Shown in pieces: positions 26,747-63,804 of a DNA stretch of 64,000 bases. Both the position numbers and the translations under genes were made by a program. The notes beneath the pieces were generated by a model, which did not search any database, was not told the DNA's origin, and saw only the letters and a program-made list of their open reading frames with translations. The DNA is from a bacterium (GTDB lineage Bacteria > AUK180): assembly GCA_023144005.1 (NCBI GenBank), contig JAGLGN010000024.1:36588-100587 (forward strand), given 5' to 3'. Numbering within the stretch: the stretch's first letter is position 1; each line of letters opens with the position of its first letter.

Positions 26747-27075
26747 TCACAGTGTAAAGGGAAGTGTGAAGTGTGAAGTCTGAAGTGTAAAGTGGGAAAC
26801 GCAAGAAGTAAATACGAGATGGATACTTCGCAAAAAGCTCAGGATGACTCAGAAATATTAATAACATTCGAAGATGTGTGGAGAATATTTCCGTTTGATT
26901 ATAACGGGGCGTAGAGTGTACAATTGTTTCACAATTTTCAACTCTCCGCTTGGTACTTTTACATCGGGACAGACGGTCGTTCGGCACGAACGAAGTGTGA
27001 GGTGTGATGTGTCACGTGTGAAGTGAGGATAGGAAAGGGGATGGATTCCCAATCGAGTTGGGAATGACAGATATG
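26747..27075. repeat. Repeat-filled gap: GTGAAG words, composite repeat (copy B, left part), dRS3-like dyad
   Basis: 26758-26800 holds GTGAAG words. 26818-26850 is the GATGGAT...CTTCGC...AGCTCAGGATGAC module also present at about 53235 (reverse). 26869-26985 is composite-repeat copy B, homologous to 35740-35850. 26978-27020 is a GTTCGGCACGAAC hairpin with words, and 27042-27065 is the dyad ATTCCCAA...TTGGGAAT. No gene. Confidence 0.75.
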
Positions 27076-35735: not shown

Positions 35736-35739
35736 AGAG

Positions 35740-35953
35740 TGCGGATATTATTTTACAGTTGATTCTACCGGGGCGAAGAGTGTACAATTGTTTCACAATT
35801 TTCAACTCTCCGCTTGGTACTTTTACATCGGGACAGTCGAACGCCGGCGGCGTACGGCGTGTCCCATATCTTACTTCGCTCCGGCGTTCTATAATTTTCT
35901 CGGCTGATTCTAATGAAAAAAACGAAATAACTATTTTCCGGTTACGGGTGTGA
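35740..35953 (+). repeat. Composite dispersed repeat, copy A
   Basis: The most continuous copy in the window. It contains TGTACAATTGTTTCACAATT, CAACTCTCCGCTTGGTAC, ACATCGGGACAG, an inner GAACGCC...CCGGCGTTC dyad around 35839-35889, and the right end ACTATTTTCCGGTTACGG. Homologous to 26869-26985 plus 27180-27215, and (reverse) to 52741-52908 plus 53179-53215. No plausible protein. Confidence 0.8.
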
Positions 35954-42534: not shown

Positions 42535-43619
42535 TCCTCATCCTCCTTATTTCGATCTTCGCCTCCTGCACCTTTGAGAGGAGAAACCCGCTTGATCCGT
42601 TATCCACAGTTTCACAGAGTGCGCCATATGATGTAATGATCTCGGGTGCATCGGAATTCATGAATTACGGTGAGACGGCAGCGTTGTCTGTTTCAGCGAC
42701 CGACCTCGAAGGGGATGCGATCACATTTACATGGAGCTGCGTCGGCGGGACCTTTTCAAATACACAGGGCGCATCAACCGTATTTACAAGCGGCTCCGTA
42801 TTTGGTGATTATAATATTATCTGCCGGGCAAAAGATGAAGTCGGATTATATACCGATGTAGCGGAATTCGTTCATATCGGCATGACGGCCTATGGTATTT
42901 TAACCGTTGATGAAATATGGAAAGGCACACATAATCTTACAGGTGATATCATTGTACCTCAGGGGAGGACGCTGACGATAGCCGACTCCGCTTTATTAAA
43001 GATCTCCGCATCGGACGGCTCTAATCTGGGCAGTTCCACGGCGAAGATCGAGATGATCATTTACGGTGCGCTTCACATACAGGGAAGCGAGACCTCACCG
43101 GTCTCAATTGAAGGGGTTTCCGCCACAAGTGATTGTTGGATGGGCATATATATCAACGGCACCTTCTCGGTGTCAGATCTGGTTCTGGCAAACGCGGTCT
43201 GCGGAATAAATTCCGCTTCCTTACCGGCGGGAAAATATGAGTTTTCTCAATGTGAGACGGCTGTACAGCTGGGTTCTGCATCTTCAAATATTTCAGACTC
43301 ATCATTTATTGAGTGCGGAACAGGTATTTATGCTTCCGGCTCTTCGTTATTAATAAGAGATACCCTTTTTGATAATTGCGTCAAAGGTATCGTAAACATA
43401 AATGGGACCGCGGACCTGGGAACATCCCTTGATCACGGTAATAACAGTTTTATCTGCAGCGAATATTCATTCGTGAATATTTCGGCCGCAAATATTGATG
43501 CTCTGGGAAATTGGTGGAATTCCCTGAACTCGACAGTGATCGATTCTGCCATTTATGATGATGATGAAGGAGGAAACGGATGGGTAGATTATTCAGACTT
43601 CTTATCTTCACAGCCCTGA
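42507..43619 (+). CDS. Lipoprotein with PKD-like and right-handed beta-helix domains
   Basis: 370 residues. The lipobox is FASC (VLILILLISIFASC). Residues 40-125 look like a PKD/Ig-type domain (AALSVSATDLEGDAITFTWSC ... GDYNIICRAKDEVG). Residues 130-350 are a parallel beta-helix (ITVPQGRTLTI-like start, ISDSSFIECGTGIYASGSS, IRDTLFDNCVKGIVNINGT) ending in LGNWWNSLNSTVID. Likely surface- or periplasm-exposed carbohydrate-binding. The stop lies 40 bp inside the next gene. Confidence 0.7.
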   Translation: MFKFEINVLILILLISIFASCTFERRNPLDPLSTVSQSAPYDVMISGASEFMNYGETAALSVSATDLEGDAITFTWSCVGGTFSNTQGASTVFTSGSVFGDYNIICRAKDEVGLYTDVAEFVHIGMTAYGILTVDEIWKGTHNLTGDIIVPQGRTLTIADSALLKISASDGSNLGSSTAKIEMIIYGALHIQGSETSPVSIEGVSATSDCWMGIYINGTFSVSDLVLANAVCGINSASLPAGKYEFSQCETAVQLGSASSNISDSSFIECGTGIYASGSSLLIRDTLFDNCVKGIVNINGTADLGTSLDHGNNSFICSEYSFVNISAANIDALGNWWNSLNSTVIDSAIYDDDEGGNGWVDYSDFLSSQP

Positions 43620-46600
43620 TCCTGGCGGTCGGCTCAGGCATCGATGCCGCTCCCGCGATGGAATGGGGGAAGATGATCGGCGCCGTCGGTGAGGCTCCAG
43701 CGCATTACAGAAAAGATGACAACTTCCCTGTAGATTTCATCGTGATCCTGAAGATCAGCGGTGATTCGCTTTACAAAGTCGATACCTATACCGCTACATT
43801 ATCAGTTGACCCCAGTTTTACTATTCCCCCAGGAGAAGTTGCCGCGAAGGAGATCTCAAATCTCTATCCCGGCGGTGAAAAATATATTTACTGGGCTGTT
43901 ACTCCTCCCGCTCTTGGCGGTGCCCTATTTGATTATGCCAATGCCCTGCAGATCAGCGCCACCTATGTAATGAACGGATCGGTATACTCAAACGGTACCA
44001 TTTCAAAAGATGTCTGGGTCACCGAGTCCTTTTCCACTCCTCAATTTTCCGTGACCAATAATATCGTAGGAGATCTTCTCCCAGGCGGTTATATTGAGGT
44101 AGTTCAAACGGTAGAAATAACCGGAGGAAATAATAATCAGTTGGCATGGGGCAATTTTCTGGATTCCTATGAGCTTCTTGAACTTATAGATATTCATTCC
44201 GATGTTCCAGGCCACGATGACCCTCAGACCTTTTCCCCGTTTCCCGCTCCTTTGGGGACATATAATATAACATACAAGTTCTATATCAACCCGCATGCGG
44301 CTTCGTCTCTTGTATCATTCAACAATTATTTCCTGGGCGATACAGGTTCACAATGGCGCACGCAGGATTCAGAAATTCTCGGAACCGGCATCCCCGCCCT
44401 TGAGATATATCCACAGGGCTTTCAGGGCAGGATCGTTGAATGTAACAGCGGTATCGGGATACCCAACATTCCTGTATCTGTCTATACGATGGCAGATGTG
44501 CTTTATGACTCGAGGCCTTCCACATTATCTGACGGAAATTATTTTTTCGGTGTCAAAGACACGGGGACTTATAAATTGTATTTCAATGATCCTTCTCATG
44601 CCGGATATTTACCGGAATATACATCCTATCTTGATGATAATGGCGGAGCGGGACACAGCATTACCACTGACCTGATCATAGAGGTTAACAGTTGTCTGTA
44701 CCATTACAACGGAGGTACGGTGTACTTTGATGCCGAGATATACAGGAATGGGGATCAGATCATTATAACCGTTGAGGACCTTGATCTGAATGTTGACGGG
44801 GCTGTCAGTGAAAGTGTTCTTGTCACTCTGACTTCAGATTCGGGGGACAGTGAAAGTGTCATGCTGATCGAGGTCGCCCCGGATTCCGGAATATTCAGAA
44901 ACAGTATCACCGCCACCGTTTCGGCGGTTGTTACTGAGAACGGCCACCTGAATTGTTCCAATGGGGATAATATTCTGGTCGATTACTATGATCAGAAGGA
45001 TTACACCGGTTCTGCTTTACATGTTTACGATACGGCGGTCTTTTATGATACTACCACTTCACATCTGAATTATTTTGATATTGACGGCCAAATGGTCCTT
45101 TCGTACGCCGTGGGTAATACGGTTTATTTGAAACTTATTGATCCTGATCAGAATATCAATAATACCATCGCGGAAACCCTTTCTCTAACGCTGATAAATG
45201 ATTCGGGAGATGATACCGAGAATATTGTCCTGGTTGAAGAAAATACGGACAGCAGCACCTTCACTTTTTCTCTTTTATCTGCTCCGGTACCCTACAGCGC
45301 GGGAAATATGATCGTGAATGCCAATCCCGGCGATATTCTTCATGGTTATTACACGGATCCCAATGATCCGTCGGATACGACAACTTCACAGGTATATTTC
45401 ATTTCTCCTTCGTCTTCTGTAATTCAGATCACTGACGGGATCATACCAAGAGTTAAGCTTATAGCCGATGAAGATCAGGTCTTTTTGAAGGTAAATGATC
45501 TTGACCGTAACAGAGATGATTCATCCTTGGATACTTTGAATGTTCAATGTAATATGAGCATTTCCGGTGATGCGGAAATATTTCAGCTTACCGAAACGGG
45601 CATTTCTTCCGGAATCTTCACAAATATCCTGCCTATAACACTCACGAACGCCGCGGCTGTTTCCTCGGACCTCATTCTTCAGAGCTCCGCCGCGGATACC
45701 TTGACCGCATTGTATGTAGATCTTCATGATCAATCCGATACCTCTTCCATTACCGCTCTTATCGGTGTCGCCGTACCGTCCGGTATTGTGTTCCTGGATT
45801 TCCTTTCGGCGGATGCAACTTTCTATTACACCGGACAGAATGTTTTTATCAGTTTATCAGATGCTGACGAGAACTTAGATCCCAACTCGGTAGAGGATCT
45901 GGAGATCACACTTGTAACTTCTGTTTCCGCGGATTCAGAGACCATCCTGCTTACCGAGACCGGTATTTCAACAGGCGTCTTCGAGAATATCGCGGGTATA
46001 CCCATAGTAAATTCCACCGCTGTTCAGGGAAACGGTATCATTGAATCCGATCCGACGGAAACCCTGACAGTGAATTATATTGACCCTTCGGATGCTTCCG
46101 ATACTTGTCTTGACAATGCAGAGATATATGAAGATCAATGGGTGAGCGATCTTGACTTCATTTCCGATACCGGCGCGCTTATCGAAGGTGTGCGTATCGG
46201 TGATATGGATGCCTTTTTACGACTTCAGGATATTGATCTGAATTTATCACCCGGCGTTATGGACACTTTTGCGATCTCAGTATATTGTACCGTCACCGGC
46301 GATACGGAGACGGTAGATCTGACAGAAACATCTGCCGATTCGGGAGTATTTGAGTCTCCCGCCTTGAACCTTACTCTGATCCCGGGCGCTCCCTTCGATG
46401 GCGCCCTCACGGTGATCTCGGGAGAGTTCATCGCCTCCACATATATCGATCCCGGCGACGCTACCGATACTTCTCATGATGAGTTATTCACTGTTGCGCC
46501 TTCTTTTGCCTCGCTCGCGCTCTATGATAAATGGGGCGAGCTGAGCGATGCCTTTGATGTGGGCGATACGGTTACGATAGAGATCAATGATCCCGATAAC

Positions 46601-49600
46601 GGCCTTTCCTTCATTGCGAAGGACAGCCTCGATATCGTTATTTTGAATATTTCCACATCGGATACTGAGTATCTGGAGTTGATAGAAACCGCCTCGAATT
46701 CAGGAATTTTCAGGGGCGTCCTTCCATTGGATTCCGGCCCACTCTCTTCCAATAACGGGATCTTGACCGGATTCAACGATCAGACCGCTGATGTACATTA
46801 TGAAGATATTTATGACAGTTCCGATACCGCTGCCGATGAATTCCTTATTAAAGAATCCTCCGACAGTATTTTGAATACCACCGACAATACGGGCTTTATT
46901 GTCAAGAATTCATATTTCCTCGGCGAGAAGATCTATATTCGGATTATCGATGATGATAATAACAGAGACCTTTCGGCTATAGAAAATATCGCCGTGACAC
47001 TGAATGTCCAGACGACAGGGGACAGTGAAACCCTTTACATCAATGAGACGGAGATATCCTCAGGGATCTTCTTTTATTCACTTGGGATACTCAGTCAGAA
47101 AACCGCTGCCATAGCGGGTGACGGCATTTTGCAGACGGCAAACAGTGATACGGTTACAGTTTCATATTCCGATAGATATCACACGGATGACAATTCTATG
47201 GCGTATGCCTTTATTTCTCAGGCGAACAGCCGTATCAAATCACTCCATTTCCATAATGACCTTTCCTGTGATACCTTTTCCGGAAACAATACGGTATCTC
47301 TTACACAATCAGTAATTCAATGGACGCAAACCCCTGCATTCGCGGAGGATTTTATTATTTCCGGCATTATTGAAGGCGTTCTGCACCTTTCCGGCGACGG
47401 AATGGTAGGCAAGCTCATAGTGGAGAAGATATTGACTTCAGGCGATACTCAGGTAATAGGGATCTCGGATGATTTTACATTGACCTCCATGTCCGATATC
47501 TACATGGTCTCATTATTCCCCGCGGTATCAACTATTTCTGCAGGAGAGCGTGTGCTTGTAAAACTGGTATTCACCGGAGGTGTACCGACGACTTACTTCG
47601 ACTCCCGTATCAGCGATTCCCGCATAGAAATTCCAACCGTGACCTATGTTAATGTTGAAAGCGCCATGTCATATAAAGAAGATTTTGCTACCGATCCCGC
47701 GGGTACTTCCGCCAATTTGGATTTCTATCCGGGCCAGACCATTTGGGTCCGCGCTGCGGTATCAGACCCTTTCGGCTCATATGACATCATGGATTCTACC
47801 GGCGCGAGGATAATTTCCCCATCTCTGACTGTTGATACCAATATGATCATGGTCAGCGACGATGGTATTTCACTTAAAAAATTCCAATATCCTGTACCGG
47901 CGGTAACACCGGGAAATTACAGCATCAATATAATGGGAGTTGAATCTAATCTTGTAACTGATAGCTCTTCTTTCACTATATCCGTTTCTACATCCGTTTC
48001 TCAAGTATCCTTTACCGATGAATTCGGGATAGATAAGGGGAATTATATCCCCGGAGACACAATATATATAACTCTGGAAGACGAGGATTCGAATCTCGCT
48101 CCTTCTTCTTCTGATTCAGAGGTGATGACGCTCTTGAACCTTACATCTGCGGATACCGAAAGTATCGTGGGCTGGGAGCTTTCTCCCGGCATATTCAAGT
48201 TCTCCATTATATCCGCCCTTACACCGGTTTCTGTAGGTGACGGCATTTTACAGGGCGATCCGGGAGATGTAATTTACGTCCAGTACTCTGATCCCTGGGA
48301 TTCCGGAGATATCTCATCCGATACGGCCGTATTCATTCTTTCCTCGGCCTCTTCTCTTGATATTGAGAATTCAAATAATGTCTCGCAGGCAATATTCAAG
48401 GTCGGACAGAAATTCTATATTCGCGGCGACGATCTTGACGAGAATGTCGATGATCTGATATTAGACGATATTCAAATTACCGCTGAATCCCTTATAGGAG
48501 GAGACAGCGAGACCTTTGTCCTTGATGAGACCGGTATGGCCACGGGGATATTCCTGTCTGCATTGAATGAGTTTACGGCAGCAGCTTCCGCGGTGGGAGA
48601 CGGTGTTATGACCGTATCCTCTCCTGATTCTGTTGTGTTCTCATATTCTGACAGGGATGACCCTTCTGATACTTCTTCGGTAATCATTGCCATCAGCTCT
48701 ACGGTTCTGGGAACCCTGGAGATGGATTCCGCATTATATCTTGAGGGCAATACCATAAATATTTCTCTTTTCGATCCCGATCTCAACTCCGATATAAATA
48801 CCGCGGAGTCGGTAGATGTTTATATTTCGGGTGGAACCGGTGATACTGAAAAGGTGACGCTCAATTCTCTTGGTATTAATTCAGATACCTTTACGGGGTC
48901 AATATCGGTGATAGAGGATAGGACTCCCTCTATATATACCGTGTATGACGCTATTTTCCACGCATCAGGAGACGGTTATTCCGATACCATTACATGCTCA
49001 TATGACGACCTTTCCGTTCCCGGCCAATCTCATCAGCTGATATATTCCTATTCGACCTTTCAGGGAGTTCCCCTTTATGAGATCGAAAAGGAGCAAAAAT
49101 ACGATATACGCGCTCAGGGTCTTGATCAGGAATATACCGTATATTTCAGAAATTTCTCTACCACAAAGGGTTCCGGCTGTGATATCAATGATCTGCTTGC
49201 TACCGGACTTGCTTTCAATTCCGCGACCGATGGCGGTGCGCTCAGCGGCAATACCGTAACATGGGTCATTGGAGAGATCGTTCCATCTATAGGCCAGGAT
49301 TCGGTAACTTTGATCGTTGATGTACAATTCTCGCTTTCAGACGGCGACACGGTAAGCAATTATGCGGTAATTGATGACGGCACTAATTACGAGACCAGCA
49401 ATATCACTGTATTTACCGCCGGGTACTTCCCTTATCTTGAGATCATTGATATAAATGATGACCCCGATCCTGTAAATGCCGGTGAAAGTATTTCATATAC
49501 CATTACCGCGGAGAACTGCGGAAATACTCCCGCCGTGACATTCATAGGGGAGTTCTCAGTGCCCGATCTTACATCATGGGTATCCGGCGGCACGCTGGCC

Positions 49601-52174
49601 GGGAATACCGTGAGTTTCCCGATCGCGTCATTAAATGTGGGTGATACCGTATCTATGAATTATATCGTAGAGGTCAGTACATCGGTATCAAACGGCACAA
49701 TATTGACGCAGCACAGCCGCGTTACGGCATCCAATGTGCTGGAGGATGCCAGGGATGAAGAGGATACACTTGTGAATTCTCAGCCCGCGCTCTCCATTGT
49801 CAAATCCGTTGACCCCTCAATGGCGGATATAGGCGCCGCGGTCACATATACGCTCGTAGTACAGAACATAGGGACTGATACCGCCTATAATACGGTATTG
49901 GAGGATCAGATACCATTTGATACGACATTCTCATGGGCCGACTCCGGAGGTGTGTTTGCCGCCGGTGTCTGCACTTGGGCCCTGGGCGATATCCTGCCGG
50001 GTGAGATCGTTACGGTCAATTTCGCGATTATCATAGCCGTCAGCGCTGATTATGGCGATGTGATCTGGAATTCTGCCCGCGGCATATTTGACGGCGCGGG
50101 TGCATATACTTATTCCAACAGCATCTCCTTCGATGTTAATGTCTTCCCGATATTATCGCTTACTAAATCTTCGACAGAAACGGTCGTTGCAGGCGACACC
50201 ATTGCCTTCGCCGTGATCCTGGAAAATACCGGAACGGACACAGCACTTTCCATGAGTGTTTATGATACCGTACCCGCCGGAATGACATTCCAATCCTCTA
50301 TTCCCGCCCCCTCTTCTTTCTCGGGTGATGTTTACAGATGGAATCTCGCTTCTCTCGGCATAAGCGACACTTATCTGATACAGATAATGATGACCGCTGA
50401 TATTACCATACCCAATTCCACCGGCCTGACGAATAGAGCCGATCTTGTGACATCTTACGGAAATGATGATTACGATACCGCTGACTATACGGTCCTGAAT
50501 ACGGCTTCGCTCTCACTTGACAAGAGCGCGCCTTCTATTGTGGAATGCGGAGATACCTTCGTCTATAGCATTGCATATCAGAGCACCGGAGCGGATACAC
50601 TCACTTCGGTGGTCATATACGACACCATACCGCAGCCTCTTTCATGGGTTTCGGGCGGTACATATGACGGTACCGGTGTCAGCTTCAATATCGGAGAAAT
50701 AGAGCCGTATTCCACGGTGAACACGGTCTCATTTGTTGTTTCTGTCCCCGCATCGTTCACAAACGGCTATTCGATAGCTAATATCGCGAACGGCAATTCC
50801 TTTGAAAGCGGGGATTCATTTAGTGATTATACATACACGGTAATATCGTCCACGCCTGTACTCTCGATTGAAAAAGAGGTGGATAAACTTGCCGCTTCTC
50901 AGGGTGATCCGCTGATCTATTCATTCGTCATCACAAATACAGGGACAGATACCGCATTGAGCTCTGTAATTTCTGATACGATCTCCATCTTCCTGAATTA
51001 CCTGTCCGGCGCCGACACGGTTACCGGATCTTTGATACAGATCGATGTTGGCGATGTTCTTCCGGGAGAAACGGTAAGCGAGAGCTTCATTGTAACAATT
51101 GATATCGCCACTCCAATGGATACGATAGTATATAATTCCGCCGCTCTGACAGCCGTAAATTCCGATACCGTATTTTCAGATACCGTAGCGACAACGGTCG
51201 GACTTTATCAGGATCCCGCTTTGGATAATTTGCTTCTGCCCGTATCCATTGATCAGGATGATACCGCGACGGTCTATGTTTCCTACTCAAATCAGGGTGA
51301 TGATATCTCAGATACTTTCAATGTAACGGTGGAATTCCCTGATTATTTCATTCCTACCGCGCCGGGCGCGACTGTTGAAGCCGGAAAGATTACCTACGAG
51401 ATCCCTTCCATGGCGATCTCCGCTTCAGATACTCAGAGCTTTGTTATCGCTTATTCCACACCGGCTTCGGTCATTGAGACCTCTGTTCTCTTCCGGGCTT
51501 ATGTCACTCCTGTCGGAACGGAAAAGGATACGGTGAACAATACGGCCATCTCCTCAATCATGCTTTATAATGATATCGCCGCTATTTATATTCTGGATAA
51601 GAATAATATAAGCCGCCGCACGCTTCTTCCGCCGGTCAGGTTCATACCCGCCAGTGATGAAGAATTCATACTTACCGGACATACGATATCTCCGAACAGC
51701 GATGGCTTCAAGGACAGTATCACTCTTTATTGGGAGGCCGCTGAGATCCTGATAGACGGAAGAGATGACCTTGGAAATATACTCGCGGACGGTGATTATA
51801 AGGTTGTTTTGCGGATCACTCCCGCCTCGGGTGAGATGAGAGAATATATAGAGACGATACATATCTATTCAGCGCCTGAGGACCTGATATCGAGCATTAA
51901 GCTTTATCCGAATCCTTCCTATGGAGCGGATCAGATGATCTTCTCCTATATACCGAATTACGATTGTTCCGTGAAGATCACGATCTATGGTGTTGCGGGA
52001 AATAAGATAAATTCATATTTCTCTGAGGACTCCACCAAGGAGCAGATGATATGGGATCTTACCAATTCTTCAGGGGAGAAGGTCGCTTCGGGTATATACT
52101 TCATCATCATAAGAGCTGAGTATGAGGGTAAAAGGGAATTATTCGGGCCGTTCAAGGCCGCGGTGATCAAATAA
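43580..52174 (+). CDS. Giant secreted repeat protein (2864 aa) with DUF11 repeats and FlgD-like tail
   Basis: Start ATG 43580 has GGAGG just upstream and a signal peptide (LFRLLIFTALILAVGSGIDA). After a beta-rich N-terminus, about ten copies of a roughly 130-residue unit run from about residue 390 to 1790, each with a D-x-D-x-N core (VEDLDLN, LSDADENLD, LEDEDSN, LFDPDLN) followed by GDSE...LTETGISSGIF and a PSDTS turn. A different segment of about 240 residues interrupts them between copies 7 and 8. Residues about 1850-2660 hold at least five DUF11-type repeats (VKSVDPSMADIGAAVTYTLVVQNIG). The end has SPNSDGFKDS and LYPNPSYG ... SGIYFIIIRA, a FlgD/type IX-like tail. Asp-rich repeats suggest calcium binding and an adhesin or surface-layer role; this is inference. 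Confidence 0.85.
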   Translation: MGRLFRLLIFTALILAVGSGIDAAPAMEWGKMIGAVGEAPAHYRKDDNFPVDFIVILKISGDSLYKVDTYTATLSVDPSFTIPPGEVAAKEISNLYPGGEKYIYWAVTPPALGGALFDYANALQISATYVMNGSVYSNGTISKDVWVTESFSTPQFSVTNNIVGDLLPGGYIEVVQTVEITGGNNNQLAWGNFLDSYELLELIDIHSDVPGHDDPQTFSPFPAPLGTYNITYKFYINPHAASSLVSFNNYFLGDTGSQWRTQDSEILGTGIPALEIYPQGFQGRIVECNSGIGIPNIPVSVYTMADVLYDSRPSTLSDGNYFFGVKDTGTYKLYFNDPSHAGYLPEYTSYLDDNGGAGHSITTDLIIEVNSCLYHYNGGTVYFDAEIYRNGDQIIITVEDLDLNVDGAVSESVLVTLTSDSGDSESVMLIEVAPDSGIFRNSITATVSAVVTENGHLNCSNGDNILVDYYDQKDYTGSALHVYDTAVFYDTTTSHLNYFDIDGQMVLSYAVGNTVYLKLIDPDQNINNTIAETLSLTLINDSGDDTENIVLVEENTDSSTFTFSLLSAPVPYSAGNMIVNANPGDILHGYYTDPNDPSDTTTSQVYFISPSSSVIQITDGIIPRVKLIADEDQVFLKVNDLDRNRDDSSLDTLNVQCNMSISGDAEIFQLTETGISSGIFTNILPITLTNAAAVSSDLILQSSAADTLTALYVDLHDQSDTSSITALIGVAVPSGIVFLDFLSADATFYYTGQNVFISLSDADENLDPNSVEDLEITLVTSVSADSETILLTETGISTGVFENIAGIPIVNSTAVQGNGIIESDPTETLTVNYIDPSDASDTCLDNAEIYEDQWVSDLDFISDTGALIEGVRIGDMDAFLRLQDIDLNLSPGVMDTFAISVYCTVTGDTETVDLTETSADSGVFESPALNLTLIPGAPFDGALTVISGEFIASTYIDPGDATDTSHDELFTVAPSFASLALYDKWGELSDAFDVGDTVTIEINDPDNGLSFIAKDSLDIVILNISTSDTEYLELIETASNSGIFRGVLPLDSGPLSSNNGILTGFNDQTADVHYEDIYDSSDTAADEFLIKESSDSILNTTDNTGFIVKNSYFLGEKIYIRIIDDDNNRDLSAIENIAVTLNVQTTGDSETLYINETEISSGIFFYSLGILSQKTAAIAGDGILQTANSDTVTVSYSDRYHTDDNSMAYAFISQANSRIKSLHFHNDLSCDTFSGNNTVSLTQSVIQWTQTPAFAEDFIISGIIEGVLHLSGDGMVGKLIVEKILTSGDTQVIGISDDFTLTSMSDIYMVSLFPAVSTISAGERVLVKLVFTGGVPTTYFDSRISDSRIEIPTVTYVNVESAMSYKEDFATDPAGTSANLDFYPGQTIWVRAAVSDPFGSYDIMDSTGARIISPSLTVDTNMIMVSDDGISLKKFQYPVPAVTPGNYSINIMGVESNLVTDSSSFTISVSTSVSQVSFTDEFGIDKGNYIPGDTIYITLEDEDSNLAPSSSDSEVMTLLNLTSADTESIVGWELSPGIFKFSIISALTPVSVGDGILQGDPGDVIYVQYSDPWDSGDISSDTAVFILSSASSLDIENSNNVSQAIFKVGQKFYIRGDDLDENVDDLILDDIQITAESLIGGDSETFVLDETGMATGIFLSALNEFTAAASAVGDGVMTVSSPDSVVFSYSDRDDPSDTSSVIIAISSTVLGTLEMDSALYLEGNTINISLFDPDLNSDINTAESVDVYISGGTGDTEKVTLNSLGINSDTFTGSISVIEDRTPSIYTVYDAIFHASGDGYSDTITCSYDDLSVPGQSHQLIYSYSTFQGVPLYEIEKEQKYDIRAQGLDQEYTVYFRNFSTTKGSGCDINDLLATGLAFNSATDGGALSGNTVTWVIGEIVPSIGQDSVTLIVDVQFSLSDGDTVSNYAVIDDGTNYETSNITVFTAGYFPYLEIIDINDDPDPVNAGESISYTITAENCGNTPAVTFIGEFSVPDLTSWVSGGTLAGNTVSFPIASLNVGDTVSMNYIVEVSTSVSNGTILTQHSRVTASNVLEDARDEEDTLVNSQPALSIVKSVDPSMADIGAAVTYTLVVQNIGTDTAYNTVLEDQIPFDTTFSWADSGGVFAAGVCTWALGDILPGEIVTVNFAIIIAVSADYGDVIWNSARGIFDGAGAYTYSNSISFDVNVFPILSLTKSSTETVVAGDTIAFAVILENTGTDTALSMSVYDTVPAGMTFQSSIPAPSSFSGDVYRWNLASLGISDTYLIQIMMTADITIPNSTGLTNRADLVTSYGNDDYDTADYTVLNTASLSLDKSAPSIVECGDTFVYSIAYQSTGADTLTSVVIYDTIPQPLSWVSGGTYDGTGVSFNIGEIEPYSTVNTVSFVVSVPASFTNGYSIANIANGNSFESGDSFSDYTYTVISSTPVLSIEKEVDKLAASQGDPLIYSFVITNTGTDTALSSVISDTISIFLNYLSGADTVTGSLIQIDVGDVLPGETVSESFIVTIDIATPMDTIVYNSAALTAVNSDTVFSDTVATTVGLYQDPALDNLLLPVSIDQDDTATVYVSYSNQGDDISDTFNVTVEFPDYFIPTAPGATVEAGKITYEIPSMAISASDTQSFVIAYSTPASVIETSVLFRAYVTPVGTEKDTVNNTAISSIMLYNDIAAIYILDKNNISRRTLLPPVRFIPASDEEFILTGHTISPNSDGFKDSITLYWEAAEILIDGRDDLGNILADGDYKVVLRITPASGEMREYIETIHIYSAPEDLISSIKLYPNPSYGADQMIFSYIPNYDCSVKITIYGVAGNKINSYFSEDSTKEQMIWDLTNSSGEKVASGIYFIIIRAEYEGKRELFGPFKAAVIK

Positions 52175-52619: not shown

Positions 52620-52908
52620 AAAACGTTCACAGGTTACGCTTCGCAGTGCACAAGTGACACGCTTCGCAGTGGACCCAGGGACAAGTGGACCCAGTGGAAC
52701 ATGCTACGCAGTGCACAGGTGGACAAGGAAAAAAGAGACACAGCCGTAACCGAAAAATCGTTATTTCGTTTCTTTCATTAAAATCACTCGTTAAAATACT
52801 AGAACGCCGGAGCGAAGTAAGATATGGGACATGTCGTACGCCGCAGGCGTTCGTCTGTCCCGATGTATAAGTTCAAAGCGGAGAGTTGAAAATTGTGAAG
52901 CAATACGA
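52620..52908 (-). repeat. Word repeats and composite repeat, copy C (reverse), left part
   Basis: 52625-52735 is made of CAGTGGACCCAGTGG and CGCTTCGCAGTGCACAAG words. 52741-52908 is the reverse complement of composite copy A, including the GAACGCCGGAG...CAGGCGTTC dyad and GTCTGTCCCGATGT. Copy C continues at 53179 after an inserted element. Confidence 0.8.
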
Positions 52909-53178
52909 GTGCTCTGATTCATAAATACATTAACAATGGCTGTGGCTATTTTGCTCCGTATTCAAGGCACGAGGAACGCTGCATACCCAGCGCGGTATGT
53001 AAGCGACGAGCAACGCAGAAGACAGAAAAGAGCTTCAGCCCGAAGGGAATATCATCTTTGGTCAATTTATTCCTCTCTCTTCGCTTACGGACCACAAATG
53101 GTACGCTACGCTCATTGTTCGTTGGAATTGACTCAAATCTAAACATTCCATTGTCATTGTATTTATGGATCAGAACAC
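52909..53178. mobile_element. MITE-like element, 270 bp, inserted in composite copy C
   Basis: The ends are 31-bp imperfect inverted repeats: GTGCTCTGATTCATAAATAC + ATTAACAATGG (52909-52939) and the complement of 53148-53178, which reads GTGTTCTGATCCATAAATAC + AATGACAATGG. Interior has no convincing protein. A second, partly rearranged pair of copies lies at 63260-63804. Sequence on both sides rejoins the composite repeat (CTCTACGCCC, CTCCACACATCTTC). No target duplication could be defined. Confidence 0.8.
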
Positions 53179-53430
53179 TAAACTCTACGCCCAGTTAAAA
53201 TCAGACGAAAATAATCTCCACACATCTTCTGGTGTCATCCTGAGCTTTTCCGCGAAGGATCCATCCCATTTTCATGTGTGATGTGTGAGTTGAAGAAGAT
53301 TGTTAAAATGTTCAAAGGTTGAAAAGTTCAAAAGTTCAAGGTTGAGAAGTAACAAGTAGAGGTTGGAGGATAGAGGCTGGAGGTTAGTTGAGAAACTGTC
53401 AATTGTCCATTGTCAATTATATTTTGCACT
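53179..53430. repeat. Remainder of composite copy C and word repeats
   Basis: 53179-53221 continues copy C up to CCACACATCTTC. 53228-53268 is the reverse of the GATGGAT...AGCTCAGGATGAC module (also at 26818). 53300-53345 is AAAGGTTGAAAAGTTCAAAAG words, 53350-53385 AGAGGTTGGAGGATAGAGG words, and 53395-53425 TGTCAATTGTCCATTGTCAA words. No gene in 52620-53472. Confidence 0.7.
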
Positions 53431-54361: not shown

Positions 54362-54434
54362 TGGGCCCGGCAGGATTCGAACCTGCTACCACCCGGTTAT
54401 GAGCCGGGAGCTCTGCCAAGTGAGCTACAGGCCC
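54362..54434 (-). tRNA. tRNA-Met (anticodon CAT)
   Basis: A 73-nt cloverleaf: acceptor GGGCCTG/CGGGCCC with one T-G pair, D-arm GCTC, anticodon loop CTCATAA, T-arm GCAGG-TTCGAAT-CCTGC, discriminator A. CCA is not encoded. With anticodon CAT it could be elongator Met or the lysidine-modified Ile type; the sequence alone does not decide. Confidence 0.9.
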
Positions 54435-54443
54435 CAAAGATTT

Positions 54444-54471
54444 ATTATATCAAAAAAATATTGAAATGCAA
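54444..54471 (-). promoter_or_regulatory. Promoter for tRNA-Met
   Basis: Minus strand TTGCAT (54471-54466), a 16-bp spacer and TATAAT (54449-54444), about 9 bp upstream of the tRNA 5' end. Confidence 0.65.
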
Positions 54472-54512
54472 TAACAATACAAAAATAATAGCCCTAAAAT
54501 GGCAAATATTTA

Positions 54513-54541
54513 TTGACAAGATAAATATTTTTTGTTATAAT
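54513..54541 (+). promoter_or_regulatory. Consensus promoter for the tRNA cluster and tig
   Basis: A perfect TTGACA (54513-54518), 17-bp spacer and TATAAT (54536-54541), 18 bp before tRNA-His. It is the strongest promoter match in the window. Confidence 0.85.
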
Positions 54542-54559
54542 TTCTGACTTAACACATGT

Positions 54560-54633
54560 GGTGGGTGTAGCTCAACTGGTAGAGCAACGGATTGTGGTTC
54601 CGTAGGTCGTGGGTTCAACTCCCATCATCCACC
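54560..54633 (+). tRNA. tRNA-His (anticodon GTG)
   Basis: Acceptor GTGGGTG/CATCCAC, preceded by the extra G(-1) at 54560 expected of tRNA-His and ending with C73. Anticodon loop TTGTGGT, T-arm GTGGG-TTCAACT-CCCAT. Confidence 0.93.
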
Positions 54634-54642
54634 CCAGAGAGT

Positions 54643-54718
<76 letters not shown>

Positions 54719-54728
54719 TTTTTTTCCT

Positions 54729-54809
54729 GCGAGAGTGGTGGAAATGGCAGACACGCAGGACTTAGGATCCTGTCCTTTCAGGGTGTGGGTTCAAGTCCCA
54801 CCTCTCGCA
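54729..54809 (+). tRNA. tRNA-Leu (anticodon TAG)
   Basis: Acceptor GCGAGAG/CTCTCGC, anticodon loop CTTAGGA, a class II variable arm (GTCCTTTCAGGGT) and T-arm GTGGG-TTCAAGT-CCCAC, discriminator A. A run of T's follows at 54810-54819, possibly a pause or weak terminator before tig. Confidence 0.92.
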
Positions 54810-61882: not shown

Positions 61883-63268
61883 GTGAAAAGGGAATTATAC
61901 CTGGCAATATTTCTTATTCTGATACATGTTTCGGTATTTTCCGTATCAATTCATCAATTGGAATCCGGGGATCATACCCCGTATAAAGCAGAGGGTTCCA
62001 GGTTATTCACCACACAGACGGAGGCCTCGGCTTTGAAAGGGACGGTCTTTGGGTTTCTTCCCTATTGGGAGGTTTCTACCGCAAATATCCGTTTTGACCT
62101 TCTTTCTCACATAGCATTGTTCTCCTATCATTTCGATCCTGCCGACGGCGCGATCATTGAGCGCAACGGCTGGCCGAACCTCTCTTTGACAAATACCGCG
62201 CATGCTGCGGGAGCCAAGGTCATCCTCTGCGTTACGAACTTTTATTCAGCATATGATTACTCAGGTTTTCTTGACAATACCACTGCCAGAAACAATTTGA
62301 TCGCTGCGCTGATCTCCGAAGTTGAAACCACTGGCCTTGACGGCGTGAATATCGATTTCGAGGGTATCAGTTCGAGCCAGAAAAGTGCCTTTGTCTCATT
62401 CATCACTTCTCTGAACGACGGCCTGAAGAGCTCTGATCCTTCATATGAACTCTCCCTTTGCGGACCCGCGGTTGATTGGAGCGGCGCTTATGATTATGAC
62501 CTGTTGGCACTGAACTCGGACGGTATATTTATAATGGCATATGATTATCATTGGAGCGGGGGTTCTCAGGCGGGCCCGGTAGCGCCTTTGTCGCCCAGTG
62601 TATTATGGGGGGATTATTCGGTGCAGTGGACCATCGAGGATTATATCGACTGGGGCATTTATACAGATAAATTTATTCTGGGATTACCATATTATGGCTA
62701 TGATTGGCCGGTAGATGCGGATATTGTACCGGCGGATACTCTTGGCAATGCTACCGCAAGAACATATTCATACGCTGTCGATTCGTCGCTCATCCACGGT
62801 AATCTTTGGAATACCGATTCCAATGTGCCGTATTACAAATACATTGACGGTGATTATCGGCAATGCTGGTACGATAATAAGTTCTCCATTTCCAAAAAGA
62901 TCGATATGGCAGATAATTATTCCCTTCAAGGTATAGGCATCTGGGCATTGGGATATGAAGATGACAAGGAAGAACTTTGGGACCTTATTGAGAGTAAATA
63001 CGGTTCCAATGAAGCTGTCAAAGCGCCTCTCATATATCCTAATCCCACCCGTGGAGATTTCCGATTGGATACCGAGGATTTTGAATATGTTGATATTACC
63101 GTCAGGGACATAAGCGGTGAGAAGATATTTTCAATGGAAAATGTTGAAAGTTCGACGATCATCGAATTAAAGAATAAGGACGGTGAATATCTCCCACCGG
63201 GAGTGTATATTGTTACTATCGTCAGGTCCGGCCAGGCCTTTCACGCCAAAGCAGCCCTGGTGTACTGA
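61883..63268 (+). CDS. Secreted GH18-family hydrolase with YPNP-type C-terminal tail
   Basis: 461 residues, GTG start, signal peptide (LYLAIFLILIHVSVFSVS). The GH18 barrel includes GFLPYWEVS (57-65), the catalytic motif DGVNIDFE (153-160; Asp158 and catalytic Glu160, with Asn in place of the second Asp as in spore-wall YaaH-type enzymes), MAYDYHW and LGLPYYGYDWPV. Likely acts on chitin or peptidoglycan sugars. The tail (about 375-461) has LIYPNPTRGDFRL, VDITVRDISGEKIF and LPPGVYIVTIV. The last codons and the TGA stop lie inside the inverted repeat of a MITE-like element starting at 63260, so the original C-terminus may be slightly altered. Confidence 0.82.
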   Translation: MKRELYLAIFLILIHVSVFSVSIHQLESGDHTPYKAEGSRLFTTQTEASALKGTVFGFLPYWEVSTANIRFDLLSHIALFSYHFDPADGAIIERNGWPNLSLTNTAHAAGAKVILCVTNFYSAYDYSGFLDNTTARNNLIAALISEVETTGLDGVNIDFEGISSSQKSAFVSFITSLNDGLKSSDPSYELSLCGPAVDWSGAYDYDLLALNSDGIFIMAYDYHWSGGSQAGPVAPLSPSVLWGDYSVQWTIEDYIDWGIYTDKFILGLPYYGYDWPVDADIVPADTLGNATARTYSYAVDSSLIHGNLWNTDSNVPYYKYIDGDYRQCWYDNKFSISKKIDMADNYSLQGIGIWALGYEDDKEELWDLIESKYGSNEAVKAPLIYPNPTRGDFRLDTEDFEYVDITVRDISGEKIFSMENVESSTIIELKNKDGEYLPPGVYIVTIVRSGQAFHAKAALVY

Positions 63269-63804
63269 TTCATAAATACGATGACAATGGAATGTTTAGA
63301 TTTGAATCAATTCCACCGAACAATAAGCGTGGCGTACCCTTTGTGGTCCGTAAGCGAAGAGAGAGGGATAAATTGACCAAAGATAACATTCCCTTCGGGC
63401 TGATGCTCTTTTTTCTGTCTTCTGCGTTGCAAGTGCTCTGATTTAAAATCCGCTGACAATGGAATGTTTAGATTTGAGGCAATTCCAACGAATAATGAGC
63501 ACGGCGTACCCTTGGTGGTCCGTGAGCGAAGAATGAGGAAGAAATTGACCAAAGATGATATTCCCTCCGGGCTGAATCTCTTTTGCCGTCTTCTACGTTG
63601 CTCGTTGCTTACATACCGCCGTGGGTATGCAGCGTTCCTCGCTCCTTGAATACGAAACAAAATAGCATCAGCCATTGTTATCGGATTTTGAATCAGAGCA
63701 CTATTGTCCCTTACATACCGCTGTGGGTATGCGGCGTTCCTCACGCCTTGAATACGGAACAAAATAGCATCAGCCATTGTTATGGTATTTATGAAACAGT
63801 ACAC
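63260..63804. mobile_element. MITE-like element, outer copy (split by a nested copy)
   Basis: 31-bp inverted ends: GTGTACTGATTCATAAATAC + GATGACAATGG at 63260-63290 and the complement of 63774-63804. Removing the inner copy (63433-63701) leaves about 276 bp that align with the element at 52909-53178 in reverse orientation. The reading frame on the minus strand (63307-63897) across the copies is not a gene. Confidence 0.8.
63433..63701. mobile_element. MITE-like element, inner nested copy, 269 bp
   Basis: Its own inverted ends are GTGCTCTGATTTAAAATCCG + CTGACAATGG and the complement of the right end, GTGCTCTGATTCAAAATCCG + ATAACAATGG. Interior matches the outer copy in the same orientation. 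Confidence 0.8.

Follow-up and report, generated by a model that had tools for sequence, protein, structure and literature searches.

Orphan MITE families exist, and sharing of ends with an autonomous element is a supporting feature of a MITE only; ERIC elements are known to duplicate a TA target. RUP, a MITE of Streptococcus pneumoniae derived from IS630-Spn1, is short and non-coding, carries terminal inverted repeats and is inserted at TA, and the Correia/NEMIS elements of Neisseria are small MITEs with terminal inverted repeats in which size variants result from an internal block (PMC2229807). REPINs present compensatory changes on both sides of a hairpin and insert into existing REPINs (PMC3116915).

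In a stretch of bacterial DNA of 64,000 nucleotides (the window), we characterized an element with the following parts:

52909-53178, plus strand: the MITE copy under study, 270 bp, or 272 bp with A52908 and T53179 included on the outside
52909-52939, plus strand: left terminal inverted repeat, a 31-bp arm
53148-53178, minus strand: right terminal inverted repeat, a 31-bp arm

This element is likely to be one copy of a large, genus-restricted, non-autonomous and palindromic MITE family of ~270 bp that is moved in trans and includes self-nesting lineages. The family is a new orphan MITE family and a variant of a known MITE kind; two measured properties are unlike those of a textbook MITE, namely the co-evolution of its arms without the interior, and self-nesting at a fixed site by inner lineages found almost only there.

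By anatomy, the family resembles ERIC and RUP, a comparison that draws on PMC2229807 and PMC10969869. ERIC/IRU resembles it in being an imperfect palindrome of high copy number that is mostly intergenic, has a TA-type target and lacks an identified mover; ERIC, however, is 127 bp long and occurs in enterobacteria and vibrios, and is set apart here by size and host, and the reviews searched do not describe insertion of ERIC into itself at a single internal position. RUP likewise is short and non-coding, has terminal inverted repeats and is inserted at TA, but its ends are common to IS630 of the same genome; IS630 was not detected in either of the two genomes studied here, the genome that holds the window (G000) and its sister genome (G001), and the family was therefore not filed as RUP/IS630. 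REPINs and their RAYTs (Pseudomonas and others) share with the family the compensation between hairpin arms, clusters formed by insertion into copies, and the presence of RAYT-type genes. In contrast to REPINs, the MITE is ~270 bp long and presents variable ends and a conserved interior, and the Y1 genes found here carry other ends, for which reason the family was not filed as REPIN. Correia/NEMIS elements are also small, with terminal inverted repeats and size variation via an internal block, but that block is a 50-bp sequence rather than a full element copy.

Anatomy and Coding Status of the Element

The first-pass annotation had assigned this element 31-bp imperfect inverted ends with 26 of 31 agreeing positions; the ends are real, but the count is 27 of 31 paired (by eye, without the outer A/T), and 28 of 32 positions are complementary between 52908-52939 and 53148-53179, where the flanking A/T is included. 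The ends of the family read GTGnTCTGATTCATAAATAC. As single-stranded DNA, 52909-53178 presented a fold well above that of shuffled sequences (z = -4.3; 0/200), and its identity to the nearest copies was at most 91%. An alignment of 60 full copies yielded omega values of 0.87-1.49 across all six frames, indicating no coding constraint; a coding function was accordingly rejected, even though a frame of ~77 aa is open in many copies. The family thus combines short length and terminal inverted repeats with the absence of a transposase gene of its own, as is typical of a MITE. An open frame of 2864 aa (43580-52174), with a C-terminal sorting-type domain recognized by eye, ends just upstream of the element, and four tRNA genes, one of them on the opposite strand, are located nearby at 54362-54809.

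Family Size and Distribution

A whole-genome search of G000 recovered the copy in the window as well as dozens of others that are full and 86-91% identical; out of 158 candidates, at least 40 places in the genome were scored. The sister genome, the sole congener examined, presented 217 candidates, while 58 further genomes presented only one match, of 26 bp, in a distant lineage. The MITE end alone matched 112 times in G000 and 143 times in G001, and did not match in five other members of the family and class; a reversed-pattern control gave 0 matches. Given the matches in G000 and G001 and the near-absence of matches in the other genomes tested, the family appears to be confined to one genus among the genomes examined. 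A search of a plasmid collection with the MITE yielded no match, and none was found in viral contigs searched with the end consensus. Fifty-four of 60 copies were intergenic; 11 of these 54 were located between convergent genes, as compared to 56 of 361 gaps, which represents no clear enrichment.

Insertion Sites and Target

The joined flanks of uniquely placed copies were searched in the other of the two genomes, and several insertion sites were found to be empty there. This comparison of occupied and empty sites, which the first-pass annotation had proposed, together with the many dispersed copies, the matched ends and a gene frame restored by removal of the element, bears out the initial description of the element as MITE-like and inserted. 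The restored frame is that of a gene split at G001 C9:18921, where the left flank ends with GTG TTA and the right flank starts with TA GGC GGA; when the element is cut out together with one TA, the frame again encodes LSVL-GGLSMLGNNF, and the intact orthologue in G000 reads ...LTLSVLGGLSMLGNNF.... Two copies in G000 (C18:3811 and C35:39775) split genes that are intact in G001. Three disrupted reading frames are recognizable.

The empty orthologous sites show that the MITE inserted at TA-like targets. Exact TA..TA flanks were present in 6 of the 35 copies with unique flanks, as compared to ~0.2 expected. The A and T directly beside the element were the most conserved bases, above the outer T and A (p = 0.005). 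As a test of target duplication, these data comprise exact TA..TA flanks in a minority of copies, one clean coding case and weakly conserved outer bases. The insertion chemistry is ambiguous because TA sites fit a 2-bp duplication and a blunt insertion of an A...T-ended element alike; blunt insertion may thus be an alternative to a 2-bp TA duplication.

The Composite Repeat and Its Shared Ends

The element is located within a second repeat, two uninterrupted copies of which are present in the window:

52771-52907, plus strand: composite repeat to the left of the MITE that interrupts it
53179-53330, plus strand: right part of the composite repeat, which resumes past the MITE
35739-35918, minus strand: empty (uninterrupted) composite copy
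26818-26975, minus strand: empty (uninterrupted) composite copy

These empty copies confirm the earlier reading that the MITE interrupts this composite copy, whose sequence continues on the other side. The same reading had been used to order the two families by age; here the insertion stands, but it is not a private event of this copy, as about ten composite copies in the two species carry the MITE at the same position and the orthologous composite locus in G001 is occupied as well. The flank reads ATACGA...TAAACTCT in most occupied composites, in both genomes, versus TTG.TACACTCT in empty ones. Given the shared position and flank and the occupied sister locus, insertion of the MITE into the composite took place before the two species separated. 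Composite and MITE were probably then copied as a unit after one insertion into an ancestral composite. Empty composites were also considered as a source for reading the target duplication; this was rejected because of differences of several bases between the flanks.

The terminal ~19-30 bp of composite-type repeats match those of the MITE; the interiors are unrelated. Members of this second family, built of CACAAGTGACAAG and AGAGGCTAGAGG blocks and carrying MITE ends, were located as follows:

G000 C13:63344-63559: composite-type repeat with MITE ends
G001 C55:53327-53562: composite-type repeat with MITE ends
Window, ~27261: composite-type repeat with MITE ends

Because of these common ends, both families were probably active together and may depend on a single mover. 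Another repeat, CCTCCGTCCCTGGAGAAT^CTGGGTGGGTGGAGGGAG, contains the MITE at one and the same position, but in either orientation:

C35:41468, C2:49901 and C16:112928 in G000: repeat with the MITE in one orientation
C13:166643, C15:124444 and C25:79676 in G000: repeat with the MITE in the other orientation
G001 C131:3810: repeat with the MITE

The two orientations may reflect either a targeted site or an inversion across the MITE's own ends.

Co-evolution of the Terminal Arms

The two arms of single MITE copies share private variants (e.g., ATTACCTTG at C6:4863 and CCTAGATCCG at C34:46488). Pairing between arms within a copy averaged 26.5 of 30 positions, as compared to 24.5 (sd 0.18) when right arms were shuffled among copies. 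Fifteen of the 30 terminal pairs were altered on both sides, in 84 cells, versus 27 cells in shuffles and at most 27 with slid partners; these two controls use no tree. A parsimony count, for which the tree was built from the MITE interior alone, assigned 48 compensatory changes of the terminal stem to the same branch, as compared to 0-1 in slid controls and 4 in the 66 pairs of the interior, a large contrast between ends and interior, although the absolute count may be inflated if element interiors recombine independently of the ends. These counts show that the terminal arms co-evolve and that the interior paired region does not, and the most conserved part of the MITE is its interior rather than its ends. 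Compensatory changes between hairpin arms are a feature shared with REPINs, and arm co-evolution indicates that the MITE ends are either under selection or copied from one another.

These data also bear on whether the repeat could be a structured RNA or terminator kept for a host function at mRNA 3' ends and duplicated by recombination. While the strong fold and the 54 of 60 intergenic copies are consistent with such a function, covariation occurs in the terminal stem alone, with almost none in the interior stem, the position relative to convergent genes is not clearly enriched, an Rfam search of the MITE sequence yielded no match, and insertions disrupt genes; a conserved host RNA is thus highly improbable, and a mobile MITE is the preferred reading.

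Self-Nesting at One Internal Site

The copies related to the element in the distal part of the window, together with the corresponding site in the element itself, are arranged as follows:

63705-63804, minus strand: left half (A) of an outer copy that a nested MITE splits in two
63433-63701, minus strand: inner nested MITE copy, 269 bp, with TTCAAAATCC end type
63260-63430, minus strand: right half (B) of the outer MITE copy, the end of which forms the final codons and the stop codon of the gene at 61883-63268
53007-53010, plus strand: internal self-insertion site GTAAGCGAC^GAGCAACGC, empty here and filled by a nested MITE in the G001 orthologue of the element

The first-pass annotation had listed two further copies at 63.3-63.8 kb; their interior is indeed shared with the element under study, but they are not side by side, as the outer MITE at 63260-63804 is interrupted at internal position ~100 by the 269-bp MITE, all on the minus strand. 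Across G000 and G001, the same A-AB-B order was read from the sequence at no fewer than 19 clusters whose inner copy is full, a set that includes complete, contig-end-cut and partly collapsed nests. The deepest nest has three levels (A-A-AB-B-B; C27:15790-16606), and the end of C35 presents two A halves ahead of a cut MITE copy. Nearly every nest checked has its inner copy at position ~100, in GTAAGNNAC^GAGCAACGC (the internal site is also written as GTAAGNNACGAGCAACGC); G001 C55 has a shorter outer half. Contig C35 was read in its entirety, and 3 of its ~9 full-length loci were nested, despite the MITE family covering only ~1.4% of the sequence. Tandem duplication was rejected as the origin of the A-AB-B order, since it would give AB-AB instead.

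Inner copies form a few clades while outer copies are scattered among solo copies, and the inner lineages were seen almost only inside other MITE copies. Targeted insertion would be the best account of these nests, with spread by gene conversion as a live rival. Under the latter, nests had a single origin or a few origins and were then spread by gene conversion or homologous recombination, rather than by repeated targeted insertion. Inner clades with characteristic junctions of their own (CTATA|..|TTG, ATTA|..|CTG and ATGA|..|TAG) would fit such a spread, as would mosaic MITE copies (e.g., C18:35568) and the replacement of a left half in G001 C25. Outer copies, however, differ from each other up to 2-4 bp from the junction and are placed among unrelated solo copies, and terminal repeats delimit the two-level inner unit present in G000 C2 and G001 C12, which makes spread by conversion rather unlikely. 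Under targeted insertion, a few MITE lineages would have become specialists on the internal site of related copies, and this would have produced Russian-doll nests, which may later collapse through recombination.

The G001 locus orthologous to the element under study contains the composite repeat and the MITE, into whose internal site another copy of 269 bp is nested, and the left half is replaced; the nested copy at this locus thus differs between the two species, being present in G001 and absent in G000. MITE nests can be mistaken for tandem repeats and interrupt assemblies. C28, C35 and C36 in G000 and C80, C50 and C31 in G001 each have a contig end that falls within nested MITEs, and nests are therefore probably under-counted in both assemblies.

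The gene at 61883-63268 terminates within the MITE, as the terminal repeat GTGTACTGA provides its last two codons and stop (63260-63268). A contig of G001 begins with a MITE end near the matching point, suggesting that the orthologous site is occupied in G001 too.

Search for the Mover

Searches of G000 and G001 with DDE_3 (PF13358), the IS630 model NF033545, DDE_Tnp_1 and DDE_Tnp_1_2 yielded no match above the cut-off, while the same profiles do give matches in control genomes; PF13358 had no match at all, and NF033545 had one sub-threshold match of 38 residues, within a Y1 gene. An IS630-type transposase, as would accompany an IS630-derived MITE, was thus not found in either genome. The full-length relative with a transposase and the same ends that had been suggested as a check did not turn up at the sampled end-bearing loci, nor was an autonomous element found at ~40 further end-bearing loci; at the sampled loci, the MITE ends were shared only with another non-coding repeat. 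Larger elements bounded by MITE ends were also considered and rejected, as only pairs spanning 216-236 bp and deletion derivatives were seen. It is possible that the mover was missed, as these searches covered part of the genome and some of the transposase families.

Y1 matches, mostly of RAYT size, numbered five in G000 and six in G001, and include the following:

G000 C25:41164-42015, C25:45044-45895, C33:42687-43535, C13:248725 and C1:21647: RAYT-like Y1 genes
G001 C82, C79, C94, C145 and C64: RAYT-like Y1 genes

Most of these genes lie within inverted ends of GGGGACGGTNGTTGC...GCAACNACCGTCCCC type, and most of those inspected were flanked by their own GGGGACGGT...ACCGTCCCC-type inverted ends. 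Nearby MITE ends face outward and no inspected Y1 gene was bracketed by them; the palindromic ends that REPINs share with an adjacent RAYT gene thus have no counterpart here. The Y1 genes were rejected as the mover on the basis of shared ends because their own flanks differ, and were retained as a rival on mechanism. Under such a REPIN-like mechanism, elements would be moved as folded single strands by host RAYT-type Y1 transposases, with the fold being recognized or one arm re-copied from the other. Consistent with this are the Y1 matches in both genomes alongside none of the tested DDE families, the compensatory changes and insertion into existing copies known for REPINs (PMC3116915), and the MITE site data, which are compatible with insertion without strict target duplication. 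The distinct ends of most Y1 genes, however, and conservation of the MITE in its interior, as opposed to the ends in REPINs, make movement by these enzymes unlikely.

Our preferred reading is that MITE copies would be moved in trans by a transposase that requires two matching ends and reads the symmetry or fold of these ends more than their exact sequence; this mover would be distinct from the tested IS630/IS5-type enzymes and may be lost or unrecognized. A bolder version, which we regard as quite unlikely, is that the two ends are regenerated from each other at each transposition, or are recognized by shape, via a folded single-strand intermediate, and that some lineages are obligate self-parasites; if so, end sequences would drift freely yet stay matched, and some lineages would insert solely into the internal site of their relatives. 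The co-evolving arms and the self-nesting, taken with the empty and occupied sites of the two sister genomes, make the movement of orphan palindromic repeats such as ERIC testable by comparison and assay. Internal deletion derivatives of ~120-145 bp that keep both MITE ends were observed in G000 at C19:2236-2378, C7:13791-13913 and C35:13953-14095.
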